A DNA stretch of 35,847 nucleotides from an uncultured Verrucomicrobiota bacterium (GTDB lineage Bacteria; Verrucomicrobiota; Verrucomicrobiia; Verrucomicrobiales; Akkermansiaceae): the NCBI GenBank assembly GCA_937867415.1, contig CALMKO010000310.1, forward strand, positions 1-35,847. The letters run 5' to 3'. The notes beneath the pieces were generated by a model that made no database searches, was not told the origin of the DNA, and saw only the letters and a list, made by a program, of their open reading frames with translations. How positions within the stretch are numbered: the stretch's first letter is position 1; each line of letters starts with the position of its first letter. Shown here in pieces: positions 23,660 through 32,116 of this stretch. A program made the translations under genes and the position numbers.

Positions 23660-24715
23660 TTATTTGATTTTTTTAGCGGCCTCTTCAAGAGGTGCGAGAT
23701 AACGCTCAGGGACCATGGCGGTCTTGGCCGCAGCCATGGCAGCGGCGATCGCGGCGGAGTCCCCGCCGCCATTGACAGCGTTCCACGCGTCGCGGAAGGC
23801 CTTGCCCCCTTCCACCCCGAGAGTCGTCTTCACCGCGTTGATGCGGGTCAATTCCAGCTCGCCATTGCGGATGGCGTCTTCCATCGAGGCCTTGTGATAG
23901 GGAGTGGTGGACAGCCAAATCTGTTTGGCTTCCTTTTCGGCTTTGTAATTCGCCTCGATGCGCTCTTCTTCCTCGCGGATCGCATTCACGGTATTGTTAC
24001 GGTCATCCACGGCCATCTGAGTGAGGCCGGAATTGCGTTGCTTGATCAAGACATCCAAGTTGGCAAGGCCCAGCCGGATCTCCCCCAGATGGCGTTGAAT
24101 GGCCTGCCGAATCGTTTCGAGCAGCGCGCCGCGCGGGATGGATGTCGAGTAGTCCCGGTCGAACTCGGAAAACAGCCGGAGCGCGGCGAGAACCTGATTA
24201 TCCGCAAGCAAGCGGCGGATCTGTGCTTCTTTGATCCGAGCGTCCAAGTCATACCCATTGGCCTGATACTCGGCGGCGCTGAGCATTTTCCCGTTGAACT
24301 TGATTCCGCCGCTGGCGATCTGACTCGATTCCGCAGTCAAGGTCTCGAGCATGGCCTTGGCATCCTTGGCCTTCGAGCTTTGGGGGAAATCTTGGGTGAA
24401 CTTCTTTACCGAAGCAATGAGCCGGCTGTAATCGTCGCTCCCTAACAAATCGGGCACGGGAAGAAATTTCTGAATGGATTCGAAGGCTTTGAGGTCGTGC
24501 TGCGCGCGTTGGATTTTCACCACGTCGGATTTCAGGACCTTGCGTTCATCTTTGATGGATTTGGAGAACTGGACTTCGAGCACATACGAGTCTGCGGTCT
24601 CGCTTAGGATCGTCCCTTCCAGAGAGCTGCCGTCTTTTAGGACGAAGGTATCCGCCAGCGCTGGCAGAGAAAGGAACAGGAAAACGAGAGGGCTGAGGAA
24701 GGGCTTTAGTTTCAT
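23660..24715 (-). CDS. Exported protein, PTPDL-like, unknown function
   Basis: I chose the ATG at 24715 (MKLKPFLSPLVFLFLSLPALA), a textbook signal peptide with cleavage after ALA (about residue 21). The alternative is a TTG at 24757, which overlaps the upstream stop as TTGA but adds an odd leader. The mature protein (about 330 residues) begins DTFVLKDGSSLEGTILSE, an SH3-like strand set common in proteins of this phylum. FLPVPDLLGSDDY follows, resembling the motif that names the Verrucomicrobiota PTPDL family. The rest is mostly helical, with an acidic/basic coiled segment (EEEERIEANYKAEKEAK). Function is unknown; it is probably periplasmic. Confidence 0.78.
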   Translation of the reverse strand: MKLKPFLSPLVFLFLSLPALADTFVLKDGSSLEGTILSETADSYVLEVQFSKSIKDERKVLKSDVVKIQRAQHDLKAFESIQKFLPVPDLLGSDDYSRLIASVKKFTQDFPQSSKAKDAKAMLETLTAESSQIASGGIKFNGKMLSAAEYQANGYDLDARIKEAQIRRLLADNQVLAALRLFSEFDRDYSTSIPRGALLETIRQAIQRHLGEIRLGLANLDVLIKQRNSGLTQMAVDDRNNTVNAIREEEERIEANYKAEKEAKQIWLSTTPYHKASMEDAIRNGELELTRINAVKTTLGVEGGKAFRDAWNAVNGGGDSAAIAAAMAAAKTAMVPERYLAPLEEAAKKIK

Positions 24716-24753: not shown

Positions 24754-26934
24754 TCAATTAATCGCGGTCGGCAAGAGCGCTTCTCGCAAAGCAGCTGGAC
24801 TGGTGACCATTTGTTTCCGGCCAGTCGGGTCGAGCACGAGCACGGAACCGGCAGGCACGTCATCTGCAGGCTTGGCGACCACGCGCTGGATCATCCGCAG
24901 CGGCAGCATTTCCACCGACTTCTTCAGGTCTGCGGGAAGATCCCGGCCGATGACCACTTTTACGGGGAATTCCCGCGCGAGAGTCGCCTGCAAAAGGTCG
25001 GTGTGGAGAATCGGCCGGTCCATGGCATAGACCGGTAAGGGGATGGCCAAGGCGCTGAAACTCTGAACCAGCGGCCGTCCGCGGGCCGCCAGGCGACTCT
25101 CGGCGAATGAAATCAATCCGGCGGTGGAGTCATCAAAAAGCATGACCAGGTCGGTAACGGGCAAGTCGATGATCCGCGCGTCGTCCGGGCATTCTTTGAG
25201 AAATTCTGAGCCGGTGAAAAGCTCAGCAGCCACGGTAGCGAGATCATCAGACCACAGGAGCCATTTCTCGTCCGAGGTGATCACGGAAACATCGAGCGCC
25301 GCCTGCAGAGCAAGCCCGTAAAGAAACGCCCGTCCCTCGCCCAGGGATTGAGGGGCTGGCTTGGAAAAGTTCCGGAGCTTCGCCCCGTCGCTAAAGACTT
25401 CGCGTGACTTCGCCAGCAAGGCGATCGCCTTTTCCTTGAAGCGCTCGTCACCCGTGACCCCAAATGCAGCGGCATAGGCCGAGACCATTCGGAAACTCGC
25501 ACCGGCGTGCGAGGCGTCGTCCCTCATCACCTCGCCATGGCGGGCATTCCGCACCTTGAGTAACTTTTTCCGGCTGGTCTCAAAACGGGTCGAAAACTCC
25601 TCCGGCGGCAGGGAAAACTCTTTGGCAAGTTCGGGTATTGATTTGCCGATGCCAATGCTGTTCGCCCGGAAGAACTCACGCCGTGGATCCACCTCCGAGG
25701 GAAGATTGCCGAGCCCTTTCATGCCGGTTGCCTTGATCCACCATGCGGCCTCTTCCGCGGGCAGTTCCTTTTCAATCTCCTCCACCGTCCAAAGCCAGCG
25801 GGAAATGTCGACTTCCGGCACCAGCCCCACGGCAAACAGGCCCTCGGTCGTGGTGAAGGATTTTTCGGCATAGGAGATGCTGGCCAGCGCCTTGTCCAGA
25901 GCACGCAGATCGCCGGTAGCGCGGTAGGCATGGATCAGCGCCACCACCGCGCGGGTCTGTGAGACGCAGTCGGTTGAGAAGCCTGGCAAGGCCCATGAGT
26001 TTCCGCGACGGGATGAGAACACCCCGCCCTCGATGGGGTCGAACATGGGGCTTGGCAACAAGTCGATCAGCAGTTCCCGGGTGGTCTCCATGCAGCGCGT
26101 GCGGACCTCATCCGATAAACCGGGATGCACCGCCGCAGTGGAGAGAAGATCGAGCGCACCGGCCGGAAACAATCCGCCGGCCTCATCGAAGTTCCGCGAA
26201 TAAGTGTCATACAGTGAGCACATCTGACGAATACAACGTAGCAAATCCGCAGCGGGCTGCTGGCTCATCACCGTCGCATTCTTGCGCTGTCCGATCCGCA
26301 TCCGGCGGTTGATGTTGTCCTTGCCGCTGTTGGTCAGCACGTAGCCTGAATCATCCGTCCACATGCGGTTGACCATGGAGTGGGATTGGTTGAAAAGTTC
26401 GGAAACGGAGTTGGAGTTGGAGGCGGCCACCGGAATCCACGCCACCGGATTTCCTTCCGGGGTGATCCAGATGAACAAGGGAAGTTGGAGTGGTCGCTTG
26501 ATTTCCGCACAAAGATCCGCCGTGAGCAGCCCGAGCTCTCGCGAGGCATCCCCATCGACAAGAACAGGCACGTAGCTGTCGTTGATGGAGGAAACCAGAT
26601 CCGAGTCACCGTCCAGAGCGGAGAGCACGGATTGGAACCCTGGTTGCTGCGGCAGAGCCACCACACAAAAAAGCAAGCGGTTCGCCGCCTTGGCCCTCTC
26701 GAATGTTGTCTGGGTCCACTGCTGCCAGTGAATGGGCGAGGCGGCTTGGCTCCGGTAAACTGCGCCGGGAAGCGAGACCAGATCATTTTTCAGAAGCTCA
26801 GGCGCCACCTCGGCACGGGCTCCGGGCGGCGCTGCGCTCTGCCCTTCATTTTTGCGGCAGCCGCCCGATCCCAGCATCAAAAGGCACACAAGGGTGCAGG
26901 TGGCTACTCTCGCTGAGATCATTTGTGAGTTCAT
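24754..26934 (-). CDS. Thioredoxin-fold (DUF255/YyaL-like) lipoprotein without CxxC
   Basis: I chose the ATG at 26934 (MNSQMISARVATC), after which a lipoprotein signal ends LGSGGC (cysteine about residue 26). The longer frame back to 27084 would put a poor leader in front and overlap the parA start region. The mature protein (about 700 residues) starts with a segment SPIHWQQWTQTTFERAKAANRLL, the counterpart of the N-terminal N-P-x-x-W-x-x-W of the DUF255/YyaL (spermatogenesis-associated protein 20) family. The following strand should carry CHWC, but here it reads VVALPQQPGFQSV, so the redox motif is absent. The C-terminal part resembles the alpha/alpha barrel of this family (ALAFGVTGDERF-type helices). 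It probably acts in the periplasm. The gene is divergent from parA and upstream of the PTPDL-like gene. Confidence 0.72.
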   Translation of the reverse strand: MNSQMISARVATCTLVCLLMLGSGGCRKNEGQSAAPPGARAEVAPELLKNDLVSLPGAVYRSQAASPIHWQQWTQTTFERAKAANRLLFCVVALPQQPGFQSVLSALDGDSDLVSSINDSYVPVLVDGDASRELGLLTADLCAEIKRPLQLPLFIWITPEGNPVAWIPVAASNSNSVSELFNQSHSMVNRMWTDDSGYVLTNSGKDNINRRMRIGQRKNATVMSQQPAADLLRCIRQMCSLYDTYSRNFDEAGGLFPAGALDLLSTAAVHPGLSDEVRTRCMETTRELLIDLLPSPMFDPIEGGVFSSRRGNSWALPGFSTDCVSQTRAVVALIHAYRATGDLRALDKALASISYAEKSFTTTEGLFAVGLVPEVDISRWLWTVEEIEKELPAEEAAWWIKATGMKGLGNLPSEVDPRREFFRANSIGIGKSIPELAKEFSLPPEEFSTRFETSRKKLLKVRNARHGEVMRDDASHAGASFRMVSAYAAAFGVTGDERFKEKAIALLAKSREVFSDGAKLRNFSKPAPQSLGEGRAFLYGLALQAALDVSVITSDEKWLLWSDDLATVAAELFTGSEFLKECPDDARIIDLPVTDLVMLFDDSTAGLISFAESRLAARGRPLVQSFSALAIPLPVYAMDRPILHTDLLQATLAREFPVKVVIGRDLPADLKKSVEMLPLRMIQRVVAKPADDVPAGSVLVLDPTGRKQMVTSPAALREALLPTAIN

Positions 26935-27057: not shown

Positions 27058-27846
27058 GTGATCAGTATTGCCGTTTCCAGCCAAAAAGGAGGTGTGGGTA
27101 AAACCACCGTCTCAATCAATCTAGCCCATTCTTTCGCCAGGGCAGGAGTGCGAACTTTACTTGTCGATGCCGACCCACAAGGATCGGTGGGACTGTCACT
27201 CACGCGCCAATCTCGTTTACTCACAGGCTTTTATGACTACCTAGCAGATCCGGGCATCCCCCTGGAGCGCCTGATCGTCCCCACTCGGCTCGAGACATTC
27301 TCGCTGGTTGCGAGCGGACAGGCGAGCGATTACGAGGCGGGAGGGGCAGGCATGGGCGCCCACCTGGCAAGGGTCAGGGCGTTTCTCCGGAGTGTCGCCG
27401 CCCGTGGCTTTGACTTATGTCTGATTGATACCGCCGCCGGACTTTTTGGAGTCACGGGGGATGTCATCGCTTCAAGCGACGCGATCATGATCCCCCAGCA
27501 GGCGGAGCCTTTGGGGATCCGTTCGGTTCCCAAGCTACTGGAGGGCCTGAATCGCTTGCGCGTGATGAATCCCCGCCTGACCGTTCTGGGAGTGTGCTTG
27601 ACGATGGTGCAGAATGATTTGGCCGAAAGTTCCGAAGCCGCAGCAGCCCTGCGGCAGCTACTTCCGCCCGAAATGGTATTCCAAACCCAGATTCCACGCG
27701 ATGGCCTGTTCGTTCGGGCCAGCGCCCGGGGACTCCCCATCGGAGTCCTGGAGGATGGCGCGGGTGCCCAAGCTGTCTTTGACTCACTGCGCGGAGAAAT
27801 TGAGGCAAAAATCGAACCTAACAGCGGTCAGACCGCACTTTTCTGA
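27058..27846 (+). CDS. ParA/MinD-family ATPase (orphan)
   Basis: 262 residues from a GTG start at 27058. The deviant Walker A is QKGGVGKTT (9-17), with both signature lysines K10 and K15. A switch I-type motif, LLVDADPQGS, follows (D37, D39), and a Walker B-like strand is LCLIDTAAG. The order matches chromosome-partition ParA or MinD-type dimeric ATPases that sort cargo on nucleoid or membrane. No parB or parS-like repeat is visible beside it, and no DNA-binding tail is present, so it is probably not the chromosome-segregation ParA. The stop is 2 bases before the ATG of the next gene, implying translational coupling. Its partner could be that gene product. Function is not known. Confidence 0.9.
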   Translation: MISIAVSSQKGGVGKTTVSINLAHSFARAGVRTLLVDADPQGSVGLSLTRQSRLLTGFYDYLADPGIPLERLIVPTRLETFSLVASGQASDYEAGGAGMGAHLARVRAFLRSVAARGFDLCLIDTAAGLFGVTGDVIASSDAIMIPQQAEPLGIRSVPKLLEGLNRLRVMNPRLTVLGVCLTMVQNDLAESSEAAAALRQLLPPEMVFQTQIPRDGLFVRASARGLPIGVLEDGAGAQAVFDSLRGEIEAKIEPNSGQTALF

Positions 27847-27848
27847 AA

Positions 27849-28493
27849 ATGGACCCGATTTATCCATGGCTGGACCCCGTCGAAGTCCGCCGCCTGGCCG
27901 AGCGCCTGATGAAGCCAAACCGGGAACCGGCCACCACCGTGGTGGATGCGGGTTTTGACGATGGCTTCGTCGGCTATGCGGCGGGCCAGAATCCGTCTGA
28001 AGTCCCACTCGCAACGCCCGCATTCCAGCCACCTCCACTCCAGGCGATCGCTCCCCAGATTTCGGAACCCGTGCAGGCTCCCGTCGCCCCGACCATTGCG
28101 ACCGCTTATGAAACGGCGGAGAATCCGACAACCGCGAGAGGGCCGTTCCTTGACCGCATCACCCGCTTCAGAGACTGGATGCGGCACAATTTTTCCGCAA
28201 CCGGCATCTTTATACTCGACCGCGAGGGCGCAGTGATTTTTGACGAAACCAGCCACGGTCGCCTTCACTTCCTCGCCAGAAGTCTCGCACTTGCCTCCCG
28301 CAGGCCCGGCACGTCTACCGGAAACGTACACGTCAAGATCAGTGCCGCAGCGACTCTTGAAGTCATTCCAGTCGAGACCGCCTACGGCTGCCTCGTCTTG
28401 GGTGCCGTCGTCCCGGAATCGCTGACGCCCGCATCGGTCGCCGCCGTGATGGAGGCTCTGACACTCGTGGCATCCCCCCCCGCCGAGAGCTGA
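27849..28493 (+). CDS. Probable Roadblock/LC7-like domain protein
   Basis: A 214-residue protein coupled to the ParA-like gene (2-base gap). The N-terminal 110 residues are low-complexity, Pro/Ala-rich after a short conserved head (MDPIYPWLDPVEVRRLAERLM). The C-terminal half (about 115-210) has the alternating strands and helix of Roadblock/LC7 proteins: GIFILDREGAVIFDETS, a helix ARSLALASRR, a strand VHVKISAAATLEVIPVE, YGCLVLGAVVPES, and a closing helix VAAVMEALTLVA. Such domains (as in MglB) regulate small GTPases or dimerise in bacterial polarity and motility. This assignment is an inference from pattern only. The disordered N-terminus could be a tether to the ParA. Confidence 0.6.
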   Translation: MDPIYPWLDPVEVRRLAERLMKPNREPATTVVDAGFDDGFVGYAAGQNPSEVPLATPAFQPPPLQAIAPQISEPVQAPVAPTIATAYETAENPTTARGPFLDRITRFRDWMRHNFSATGIFILDREGAVIFDETSHGRLHFLARSLALASRRPGTSTGNVHVKISAAATLEVIPVETAYGCLVLGAVVPESLTPASVAAVMEALTLVASPPAES

Positions 28494-28516: not shown

Positions 28517-31500
28517 CTAACGGGTCTTGCGGTTTTGCATCGAGATCACCCGGATGGAAATGAGCAAACAGCCGATGATGGTCCCCATCAGGACAATTCC
28601 GCAGTATTTCTGAGTCTCGATTTCGTTCGCCGGCTCCACGTATTTGTTCGGGAATTCAGCAGGCGCGGCACTCATGAACGGAATCGGCTTTTTAAGCGCG
28701 TGGAATACGATCCGCCGCTCCTTGTCCCGGTAATCATTGCGGAAAGTCTCCGCCTCCCTAACCAGGAGGTCGATCCTCTCGTTGACAAAAAACTCCGACG
28801 CCGGACGGGCGTTTTTTTCATTTTCCGGCCAGACGACCATGGTCTCCACCTCGAGACGCGAACCATTGATGGAAGTCCGCCGGATTCGATCCACCAGATC
28901 GGCCGCCTCCGCAGAGGAGCCCGCCCCTGCGGCTAACAGCCGACGAAGGCCCTCTTTCACCAACTCGAACCGCTCGATCTGTTGGGCATCCATCGGCTCC
29001 AGCCTTGCCCGCATCCGGTCGATCCGGCGCTGGAGCCTCACCCGCTCCACCTCGAATGGATTTCTTGTCGCCTGGGCCACGATCATTCCCTCGTAGGCGT
29101 AGCGTAGCGGCATCACCATCGCGGGGACAGGCACACCACCCCGATCACGCACCTCTCCCGGATTGTTGAACAGCCCGTGATTCATCTCACGGTAAGAGAC
29201 CAGGGCTCCGGCAAGCAACATCTGCGGAACCAGCAGGAGCGGCACCGCCGTGAGCGCCGCCCGTTCGGATTTCACCAGCGATGACACCACAAGAGCCATC
29301 GCGGTCCCGGTCCATGCCGTCAGGGTCATCCACAGCCAGAGATAGATCAAGGTGCCCTCGATCTCCAGGAAGTAGTTTCCCACGATCAGATACACCAAGC
29401 ATTGGAGACAGCCGACCAAGCCCAGCGCGGCGAATTTGGCAATCACATACGAACTGGCACCTGGCTGGCAATTCCGCTCGCGCCGGAGCGTCGGCCGGTC
29501 CCGCAACACCTCGGTCGCCGAATTCGTGAGACCCAGAAACATCGCCACCGTGGCACTCAGGAACAGATAAGCCGGGACGTGCAGCGCCGTTGCAAACTGA
29601 TAGGCCCCCTCGGGCGATGAACGCAAGGTGATCGCCACCAGGGCTGCCAGCAAAGGAGCCTCCAGACAGGTGCTGTAAACCGTCCCGCGATTGCGGATTT
29701 TTGAAAACAAGGAGCGCAGGAAATGAGTGGCGAAAACCGCCAGAATCGCCCGCAGCCGCCGTGTCGGCTTCGGTGGCACCGGCAGATGCCCGCTATCACC
29801 CAAGCCACTCAATTTCGACACCGGACTTCCGCCGTGTTGCAACGAATGCATCAAGTCCAGACTTTCGAAGCGCTCCTGCCAGAACGACGGTGGAAACCGG
29901 CGCGCGGCACCCGTGTTCGAGCCGCCACCGATGGAACTCAAAGGTGTCTCTAACACATCGAACACGAAATCCGCTCCCAAGGGTGACTTGGCCGTCACCG
30001 ATGGATGGGAAATCGAGAGCTCCTCGCAAGCATCACGGAAATACCCGACCATCTCCGCAGGTGTGCCGAAATAAGCCAGGCGGCCGCCACTATCCAGCAG
30101 TAACACCTTGTCAAACAACCGCAATACCGTAGCCCCGGGCCGGTGAAGGGACGCGATCACGATTTTTTCCCGCGCCAGAGACCGCAGCGTTTCCGCGACA
30201 TGCTCCGAATCCTTCGAAGACAGCCCGGATATCGGTTCATCGAACAAAAAAACCTCAGCCCTGCTCCCCAGATCCACTCCGAGATTCAAGCGGCTGCGCT
30301 CACCACCCGAAATGGTTTTTTCACCCGGAGCCCCCACCCTGCGCCGTGCGATCGATTGCAGCCCGAGCTCAGCCAACATGCTGTCCACCCGCCGCTCATG
30401 TTCGGCAAGTGAGAGCGCGGGCCGCCGGATGGTCACCGCATAGCGCAAGTGCTCGCGGACCGTCAGTTGCGGGCTCAGCGCCTCTTCCTGCGGCATGTGG
30501 GCGATGAAGGGCACCAACTGCTCGCGTCGTTCGTAAAGCGGAATCCCGTTCAACTTCACCTTGCCGCGCGTCGGCTCCCGTTGACCTGATAGAACGGCGA
30601 GCAAGGTGCTCTTGCCGCTGCCGCTGGGGCCGATGATGCAGAGCATCTCCCCCCGCTTGACCTCGAAATTGATGTGATCGAGAGCCCTCGAATCCGGCCC
30701 GAAGTCATGGATCAGATCCTCGACTTGCAGTGACTCGATCAAGGTCCGTTCCTCATCGAGAAAGCCCTCGCTGAACCGGCAGCGCACCGACTGGCTGCCG
30801 GAGAGACGGATCAAGGATCCATCCAAAAGCGTGGCCGTCTGGCGCACCGGCACACCATCCACCAGAATCGTTCCTTGGCTTTCCCGGACGATCAACTCGC
30901 CCTCCGCGCGCTGCGCGTCGTAACGGATGAACAAAACCGTCTTCGGAGCCAGCTTGGGCCCCAACAGAAGATCACCCGGGGACAGCGCGGAAGCATCATT
31001 GGAGACCAGATACTCCTGCCGGTCACCCGCAAGCCGAAAGCGCCGACCCTTCTGGGTTGCCTGACGCCTGAGTTCATTGATTGAAAGACTGAACCCGGAC
31101 TGATCTCCCAGGCGTTCGTGATTGAAGCATTTGACAAGATCCCCCTTCTTCAAAGGCCCCCGACTTCCGGCATGCAGGTCGGTATCACGCAGCGCCTCCA
31201 CTTCCGCCGCGAGCCCGAAGCGGACACGCAAGGCGCTGTTGCGCACCTTGGTCCTTTCCACGGTGAGGCCCGTATCTCCCGCAGCCAGATAGATCGCGGG
31301 CGAGTTCCCGGTCCGCTTTACATCGAGGAAAAACATCAGATCCTCATGACTCAAGGTCCAGCCCGGCACGACCAGAGGTTGGCGCTCCCGCATCCGCAGA
31401 AACGATCCCGTTTCCACCGAGCGTCCCCGGATCCATAGCGGCGAAATACCCGTGTTTCTCACCAACACCAAATCCGCCGCGCGATAAACCCGGAATTCAT

Positions 31501-32116
31501 GATCACTGGCCGCCGGCGGTAACAATACATCCGCCTCATCACGTCCGAATACCAAGCGCTCGAACGGCAGATCAGCCTCCGCAGGTTCACCCGCATCCCC
31601 GCGCATCTCACGTAAAATAGCCGTCCCATAGTCCGGCCTGCCCAAGCGGCGCATGAAGACCTCGAAGCTCGTCCGGTTCCGCTCCGACCGCCCGGCCGCA
31701 TCCACCAGAGTGAACAACTGGAGGCCCAGCGCCAGCTTCCCCGCATCATCGAAACTATCCTTCAACTCCATTGCCAGGCCCTGCAATGGTTGAGGATTCC
31801 GCACGGCCTTTTGCAAACGCCTCCCTAGCCATCCATGGTCCACCTCGGGAAAGGCGCTCCGCAACATATCAAGAATCAAGTCGGCTTCCAACGCGCTCAA
31901 CTCATCGTCCAAGGTGGCAAAGGCCGCGAACGCATCCACCAGCACCCCCACATGCGCATCCGCCCCTGGACGCAGCGCCCGCAACCGTCCCACCCCGGGA
32001 ATCAACCTCAGCCACCCCAGAAGCCGGATCTTCCACTGCGATGCTTTCGGCTGCTCTCTCGGGGTCAAATGCGGTTCCACGCCCGCTTTGTAAGCAGACC
32101 CACACCCGACCCGCAA
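28517..32116 (-). CDS. Multi-domain ABC transporter: TerB-like, FHA-like, ABC ATPase and ABC-2 permease
   Basis: A 1199-residue single chain, ABCG-like in order (ATPase then permease), with a large N-terminal regulatory half. Residues about 55-150 form an all-helical acidic domain ([20 protein letters not shown]) that resembles TerB. About 175-290 and 360-460 contain beta-rich FHA-like segments ([12 protein letters not shown], and [23 protein letters not shown]), though the classic Arg/Ser phosphothreonine-binding residues are not clear. The ATPase (465-690) has Walker A GPSGSGKS (496-503), signature [10 protein letters not shown], Walker B VFLFDEP and H-loop ASLHRP. The permease follows (about 800-1000), with a last helix near 1172-1192. 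The start here is TTG, and GTG at 32080 is possible. It is convergent with the ParA-like pair. Substrate is unknown. Confidence 0.8.

Follow-up and report, generated by a model that had tools for sequence, protein, structure and literature searches.

ParA ATPases belong to the SIMIBI class. In the known ParA/MinD systems, an N-terminal peptide of the partner protein is described as contacting the ATPase, and the remainder of the partner serves the cargo (PMC10241942). Contact through N-terminal peptides is reported for most ParA partners (PMC10241942, PMC12204374, PMC12462528, PMC13170346). McdB contacts McdA by way of the 20 residues at its N-terminus (PMC12204374). PomX carries an N-terminal activating peptide, whereas PomY departs from this rule and acts via its C-terminal region (PMC13170346). 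PpfA, an orphan ParA of the Rhodobacter chemotaxis clusters, is described as functioning without ParB, together with the non-ParB partner TlpT (PMC9178275).

The DNA analyzed here, a stretch of 35,847 nt that we refer to as the window, forms contig C310 in a draft genome of 4.9 Mb (95.75% complete). It encodes a ParA-type ATPase which is directly followed by the gene for a partner with a predicted Roadblock domain, named RBL (Table 1). In the papers listed for ParA with Roadblock, MglB or Verrucomicrobia, considered mostly by title and abstract, no such pair was described. By its predicted anatomy, RBL fits the common plan of ParA/MinD partners. We consider it fairly probable that the two genes form a positioning module of the ParA/MinD type with a dedicated modular adaptor, composed of a head, a linker and an exchangeable domain. 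The reading as a ParA-Roadblock pair, given in a preliminary description of the window, is supported by anatomy and evolution, and from these we infer the positioning function.

Table 1. Features of the ParA/RBL locus and its direct neighbors (window coordinates).
Feature	Position	Strand	Basis
Lipoprotein-like protein with Thioredox_DsbH/DUF255 domain, divergent neighbor	24754..26934	-	E 4.2e-11 (on 24757-26928); synteny
ParA-type (deviant Walker A) ATPase, 262 aa, GTG start	27058..27846	+	ORF list, Pfam, FastTree
Deviant Walker A KGGVGKTT, ParA residues 10-17	27085..27108	+	invariant in 39/39 rows of A2
Junction TGA-AA-ATG between both genes	27844..27851	+	sequence
Partner protein RBL, 214 aa	27849..28493	+	ORF, relatives, profile search
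Proposed head for docking to ParA: N-terminal motif, RBL residues 1-22 (MDPIYPWLDPVEVRRLAERLMK), with a predicted helix at 10-21	27849..27914	+	alignments, motif scan
Second short motif DAGFxxxFVGY, RBL residues 33-43, typical of family f1	27945..27977	+	A4
Pro/Ala-rich linker, RBL residues 45-96	27981..28136	+	low pLDDT, length varies among relatives
Predicted Roadblock/LC7-fold domain, RBL residues 97-209	28137..28475	+	AlphaFold2, Foldseek, VIA-align
ABC-ATPase + ABC-2 permease, up to 1199 aa, convergent neighbor; syntenic in some relatives	28517..32116	-	domain search, synteny

The pair has the ParA motifs in common with ParABS, but it has no ParB neighbor, its ParA is placed in a clade separate from the Soj protein of its own genome, and the equivalent of R238 is lost. 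The positioning of carboxysomes by McdA/McdB likewise relies on a ParA-family ATPase and a small adaptor. RBL differs from McdB by its Roadblock domain and by a W-[ILV]-D head that carries no net positive charge, and there is no microcompartment protein among the annotated neighbors of the pair. A ParA/MinD ATPase is also shared with PomX/PomY/PomZ, which act at the division site of Myxococcus, and the partners from family f102 of another order are coiled-coil-like. In contrast to the Pom system one partner is seen instead of two, the partner carries a Roadblock domain in the order of the window, and nothing observed here points to FtsZ as the cargo. In MglA/MglB, MglB is a Roadblock protein, and the predicted RBL domain aligns to its structure 6hjm_C, but the adjacent NTPase is a ParA here and a Ras-like GTPase there. 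PpfA/TlpT has a different partner, and no chemotaxis protein was found among the annotated neighbors of our pair.

The window ParA matched the Pfam models AAA_31 (E 1.5e-24) and CbiA (E 5.8e-21). Its DxDPQ box, present as DADPQG, was invariant together with the Walker A motif in all 39 rows of alignment A2, which comprises window-type ParA proteins; the full set of ParA motifs claimed in the preliminary description is thus present. The closest solved sequences in a PDB sequence search were 1wcv/2bek, which we take to be Thermus Soj, and 8ray, the chain of which shows a D60A change. From this change and from the mention of 8ray in PMC12462528, we take this entry to be ParA of M. xanthus. In a FastTree analysis of 91 ParA proteins, 85 window-type proteins were split from 6 canonical ones by a branch of 1.70 with support 1.0, which places the window ParA in a clade distinct from chromosomal Soj/ParA. 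Among the matches listed for a ParA profile in 150 genomes of the class, window-type proteins scored at least 250 bits and the rest, including the Soj of the own genome, about 108-144 bits. Members of families f3 and f4 (L066-L072) have a conserved ParA tail, e.g., YTRLMD or HASLLD, that is missing from the f1 rows.

The absence of a ParB partner, as previously stated, applies to the locus, where no ParB lies beside the window parA, but not to the cell. The genome encodes a chromosomal-type ParB on contig C312 (182.8 bits) as well as a separate Soj-type ParA on contig C407. These two (G000:C312 and G000:C407; loci L220 and L221) are located on different contigs, and neither neighbors the other.

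The TGA stop codon of the ParA gene (27844-27846) is located 2 bases before the ATG of the partner (27849), in agreement with the preliminary description. In 36 of 55 relatives the junction has the overlap TGATG (offset -1) when the start nearest to the ParA stop is taken. Judging from this arrangement, the two genes are likely translationally coupled. A scan for promoters and terminators revealed no promoter-like site, and 3 terminator-like sites compared to 1.7 expected.

The C-terminal half of RBL is predicted to have a Roadblock/LC7 fold with the order a-bb-a-bbb-a. In the AlphaFold2 model (53 sequences), residues 98-208 formed a helix, two strands, a helix, three strands and a helix. The pLDDT of ten-residue blocks from 101 to 210 was 84 to 97; a helix was modeled at 10-21, and most of the remainder had low values. 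The best PDB matches in Foldseek were MglB (6izw, E 1.3e-4) and a Thorarchaeota Roadblock protein (7f8m, E 1.4e-4). VIA-align resulted in a Z of 12.2 with an rmsd of 2.7 for both the Streptomyces Roadblock protein 3kye_A (over 107) and MglB 6hjm_C (over 111). Among the rows of other folds, the highest Z was 9.9, for a GAF domain and a profilin. The architecture was unchanged in a model, built with 29 sequences, of the relative L144 (331 aa, 36% identity, far longer linker), which aligned to 6hjm_C with a Z of 13.3 and an rmsd of 2.6 over 117. A misreading of the fold was rejected, since the two models agree. The Roadblock-like C-terminal half and the disordered Pro/Ala-rich stretch before it (residues 45-96, of low confidence) had both been anticipated; the domain extends over about residues 97-209 instead of 110-214.

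Sequence searches did not assign RBL to a known family. No Pfam or NCBIfam model matched RBL, and Robl_LC7 (PF03259) matched none of the 53 alignment members at E ≤ 1 and nothing in the own genome. Because PF03259 was unmatched, we assign RBL to the Roadblock fold without Robl_LC7 membership. Pfam gave only scattered weak matches across the 53 members, namely CHASE4 in 4 (best E 0.035) and five other models in 1 or 2 members each. The top three hits of a PDB sequence search with RBL were MglB proteins with weak E values (0.43-0.52), and the fourth was a glycosyltransferase (E 0.77).

Between head and Roadblock domain, F40 and G42 of the second short motif were invariant in the 53 rows of A4. 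The linker had a mean majority-residue share of 0.28, and the length of the partners ranged from 168 to 604 aa (broken L073 excluded). In some loci the linker is enlarged by simple repeats, such as Ala-Pro runs (L037, 8443-9114) or APV repeats (L050, 5955-7016).

RBL was detected in 58 of the 239 genomes of the order by a single-protein search and in 159 genomes, representing 41 of 48 genera, by a profile search. From the 159 positive genomes, 80 loci were hand-picked for close study. ParA was directly upstream of RBL on the same strand in all 55 loci from named genome records, two of which have an incomplete partner (L147, contig end; L148, broken frame). Among 40 loci from the genomes of the single-protein search, BLAST found the pair in 39, counting L067, where the contig edge truncates ParA, and L073, whose partner is broken; for the remaining locus, L064, clustering still put RBL adjacent to ParA. 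The pair was also present in 38 of 40 loci of families f2, f4 and f6, the other two (L180 and L193) representing RBL at a contig end. The neighborhood comparison suggested along with the first description thus found both genes conserved together, and chance adjacency was ruled out by the 55/55 and 38/40 loci and by the control ORF ends described below. On this evidence from genome sequences, the ParA and RBL genes are inherited as one unit. Genus g1, to which the window belongs, also includes Luteolibacter pohnpeiensis (locus L108), which NCBI assigns to the Verrucomicrobiales. Genome G149 (L073 and L148) has a ParA that reads intact next to a broken partner gene, of which the ORF scan found a 77-aa remnant.

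The 80 genomes of the order without an RBL match comprise 20 listed ones, namely 19 of genus g2 and G225 of the own genus g1, and 60 further genomes. G225 had no match in the single-protein search either. Genus g2 (same family, 2.2-3.3 Mb) is probably Akkermansia. Among 18 listed g2 genomes, 17 had one ParA match with a Soj-type score and one had no ParA match at E ≤ 1e-30, and the RBL profile had no match in the 19 listed genomes. Window-type ParA and RBL are thus jointly missing from the listed g2 genomes. One weak match of an RBL profile in the g2 locus L222 (E 0.0031) was mostly over linker positions. Scans of the phylum and the class with RBL profiles A1 and A5 matched 20 of 387 and 28 of 286 genomes. 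All 20 from the phylum scan are within the order, and one of the 28 from the class scan is outside it (G734, E 2.2e-4, inside a 576-aa frame). A 190-aa frame in genus g7 of family f1 (G132:C39:230138-230521) was hit by profile A5 (E 3.3e-6), with the match confined to profile positions 1-113; as far as its sequence tells, it may be a partner whose C-terminal domain has changed strongly.

The N-terminal motif of RBL, which was missed in the preliminary description, offers the best hint at the mechanism. This head has the consensus M..SW[ILV]D, and a helix is predicted behind it. W7 was invariant in alignments A1 (35 rows), A4 (53 rows) and A5, and in A5, whose 49 RBL rows represent the families f1, f2, f3, f4 and f6 of the order, it was the sole invariant residue beyond the start Met. 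The pattern [SPTFA]W[FILVM][DEN], which was chosen with the sequences already known, was found right after window-type ParA in 73 of the 76 loci that were counted for the order. As a control, the ends of other long ORFs in those loci were scanned, and 5 of 949 were followed by the pattern. The three misses in the order were L062 (QWMD), L065 (QWLD) and L073 with its broken partner. L067, L180, L187 and L193 were not counted, as they have no ParA above 180 bits (truncated or absent), and outside the order the pattern missed L217, L224 and L233.

Peptides of characterized ParA/MinD partners are described as positively charged, whereas the RBL head has no net positive charge in the order. Over the first 24 residues, the net charge averaged -1.8 in f1 (n = 30, range -5 to 0), -2.2 in f2 (n = 16), -1.3 in f3 (n = 3), -2.2 in f4 (n = 22) and -1.0 in f6 (n = 2), and the window head is neutral by hand count. 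Arg14 was kept in 94% of A4 (f1) and inconsistent in f4. The N-terminus of the ParB from the own genome (LGKGLGALI; usual motif MAKQALGKGLGALIKK) is unlike the RBL head. Head and ParA of the pair thus differ from the ParB N-terminus and the Soj encoded elsewhere in this genome, as two ParA systems insulated from each other would be expected to.

Outside the order, window-type ParA was found in G654, G645 (family f102) and G655 (f113). In the order of G654, 9 of 62 genomes contain it, and 8 of these belong to f102, corresponding to 8 of the 12 f102 genomes. The head pattern followed ParA in all eight f102 loci. Seven of the heads read SW[FI][DN], L228 was identified by pattern only, and a Pro-rich stretch comes next. 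In this family, the first 24 residues carry a positive net charge, with a mean of +2.9 (n = 8). In the three complete f102 partners (L226, L230 and L232), the C-terminus is an apparent coiled coil, as judged by eye, and the Roadblock profile had no match near ParA in L215 and L216. For G655, no partner was found. Since f102 keeps the ParA clade and the head and has a coiled-coil-like C-terminus, the C-terminal domain of the partner seems to be exchanged between the orders while the head is constant. G714:C130 (f100; L224 and L233) carries two window-type ParA genes in tandem, both with a coiled-coil-like ORF behind them; by eye, these ORFs have a related, W-less version of the head.

These data also bear on the idea that the Roadblock domain is itself the regulator, which would bind ParA and control its ATPase as MglB does with MglA, the head serving otherwise. 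It has been proposed that Roadblock/LC7 is an ancient superfamily of NTPase regulators (Koonin and Aravind 2000, cited in PMC4316618), and the lack of net positive charge in the heads of the order would agree with such a role. In addition, the Roadblock domain of f1 is nearly as conserved as the head (majority-residue share 0.66 and 0.73). We nevertheless regard this idea as unlikely, given that ParA clade and head are kept in f102 with its apparent coiled coil and that no residue other than W7 is invariant after the start Met in A5.

We compared the window ParA with the residues by which M. xanthus ParA binds ParB. Equivalents are present for Y81, E82 (as Asp) and L150, and are missing for L152 (Gly131), L155, L187 (Arg166), D110 (Gln88) and E117 (mostly Gly95). 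Ser128 together with Leu, Ile or Val at 131 is the state in five Soj-type proteins and in M. xanthus ParA. The window clade has Gly128 in 39/39 rows of A2, 19/19 of f4 and 17/17 of f2/f6, and Gly131 in 38/39, 14/19 and 9/17 rows, respectively. That a ParA pocket opened by these glycines receives the tryptophan of the head is speculation. Position 217, corresponding to R238 of M. xanthus ParA, the arginine for non-specific DNA binding, was non-Arg in all rows (39/39 A2, 19/19 f4, 17/17 f2/f6). Most A2 rows have Arg or Lys at 220 and 224, and position 220 is acidic in 19/19 f4 rows. Going by the alignment, the basic residues 220/224 could replace the lost arginine in f1.

The neighborhood of the pair is partly shared among families. 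Parts of a block composed of hisH, hisB, the secreted protein, the DsbH-like lipoprotein, the ABC transporter and ftsH are common to f1, f2, f4 and f6, and none of them is universal. The signal of the DsbH-like lipoprotein ends with LGSGGC, and its gene is syntenic in many f1 and some f2 and f6 loci. The secreted-looking protein (351 aa, 23663-24715, minus strand) has no Pfam match and adjoins hisB; members of its cluster accompany the pair in f1, f2, f4 and f6. Crude clustering of the 80 loci gave the DsbH-like protein in 31, the secreted protein in 31, HisB in 23 and the ABC transporter in 22, compared to ParA in 59 and RBL in 55, and we therefore rejected the neighbors as obligatory members of the module. 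No cargo gene was recognized among the partly annotated neighbors. MinC_C was found in 0 of 39 genomes (the own and 38 relatives) and in 6 of 14 control genomes. Because the search found no MinC in the own genome and the 38 relatives, the division site is a candidate cargo.

With no cargo gene recognized beside the pair and the DNA-binding arginine absent, the ATPase might also be a regulatory ParA, comparable to FleN/FlhG or a switch protein, that acts with a signaling partner and without transport or positioning. The very variable linker and the conserved catalytic residues would rather favor a cycling tether, and we see a slightly smaller chance for this reading than for regulation by the Roadblock domain.

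Classic par loci consist of a ParA gene and a small gene downstream of it, and the pair resembles this layout. A second DNA partition system, with RBL as an unusual centromere-binding protein, is nevertheless improbable: the genome has its own ParB and Soj, Roadblock is the only confidently predicted domain of the partner, and the locus is syntenic with hisH, hisB and ftsH in many relatives. Plasmid-type partition was rejected on account of this synteny.

Least probable of all is a branch of the MglA/MglB polarity system with its GTPase encoded elsewhere. In its favor, MglB is among the best structural matches and MglA members are reported from Verrucomicrobia genomes (PMC4316618). Searches of the own genome, an assembly 95.75% complete, with the models of two Ras-like GTPase families speak against it: Roc (PF08477) and Arf (PF00025) gave one match each, with 22.2 bits (cut-off 27) and 20.3 bits (cut-off 22.3), respectively. 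The likeness to MglA/MglB that was drawn in the preliminary description therefore holds for the fold and, as far as tested, not for the partner.

For the positioning module, the following mechanism can be proposed. The N-terminal helix of RBL would dock at the edge of the ATP-bound ParA dimer, like the N-termini of ParB, PomX and McdB, and the docked head would control ATP hydrolysis by ParA. The Roadblock domain would dimerize the adaptor, as assumed from other Roadblock proteins, and bind the cargo, and the linker would let the surface-held ParA pull on this cargo. The adjacency of the genes, their joint absence, the motif counts (73/76 and 8/8 versus 5/949 in the control) and the coiled-coil ends of f102 argue for a positioning module. 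The mostly missing equivalents of the ParB-binding residues, the lost equivalent of R238, the lack of a recognized cargo gene, and G225 and the 60 further genomes without RBL argue against it. The head, which lacks a net positive charge in the order, speaks against a simple copy of ParB or McdB, and since PomY acts via its C-terminus, the RBL head need not be the ParA contact.

A wider reading, which we put forward tentatively and hold to be possible rather than probable, is a class of ParA positioning systems in which a fixed W-[ILV]-D head recognizes a remodeled ParA pocket and the rest of the partner is exchangeable, with Roadblock in one order. This class would be widespread in an order of the Verrucomicrobiota and could serve to position the division site or some other core structure in cells where no MinC was found.

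ParA/MinD ATPases work with diverse partners, most of which are known as single cases. The pair described here would be a ParA/MinD system with a new adaptor architecture. Its order-wide inheritance, the short diagnostic motif and the apparent swap of the C-terminal domain make a "constant head, variable cargo module" directly testable. The Roadblock superfamily is otherwise tied to Ras-like GTPases and dynein; through RBL, the Roadblock fold would be connected with a ParA ATPase.
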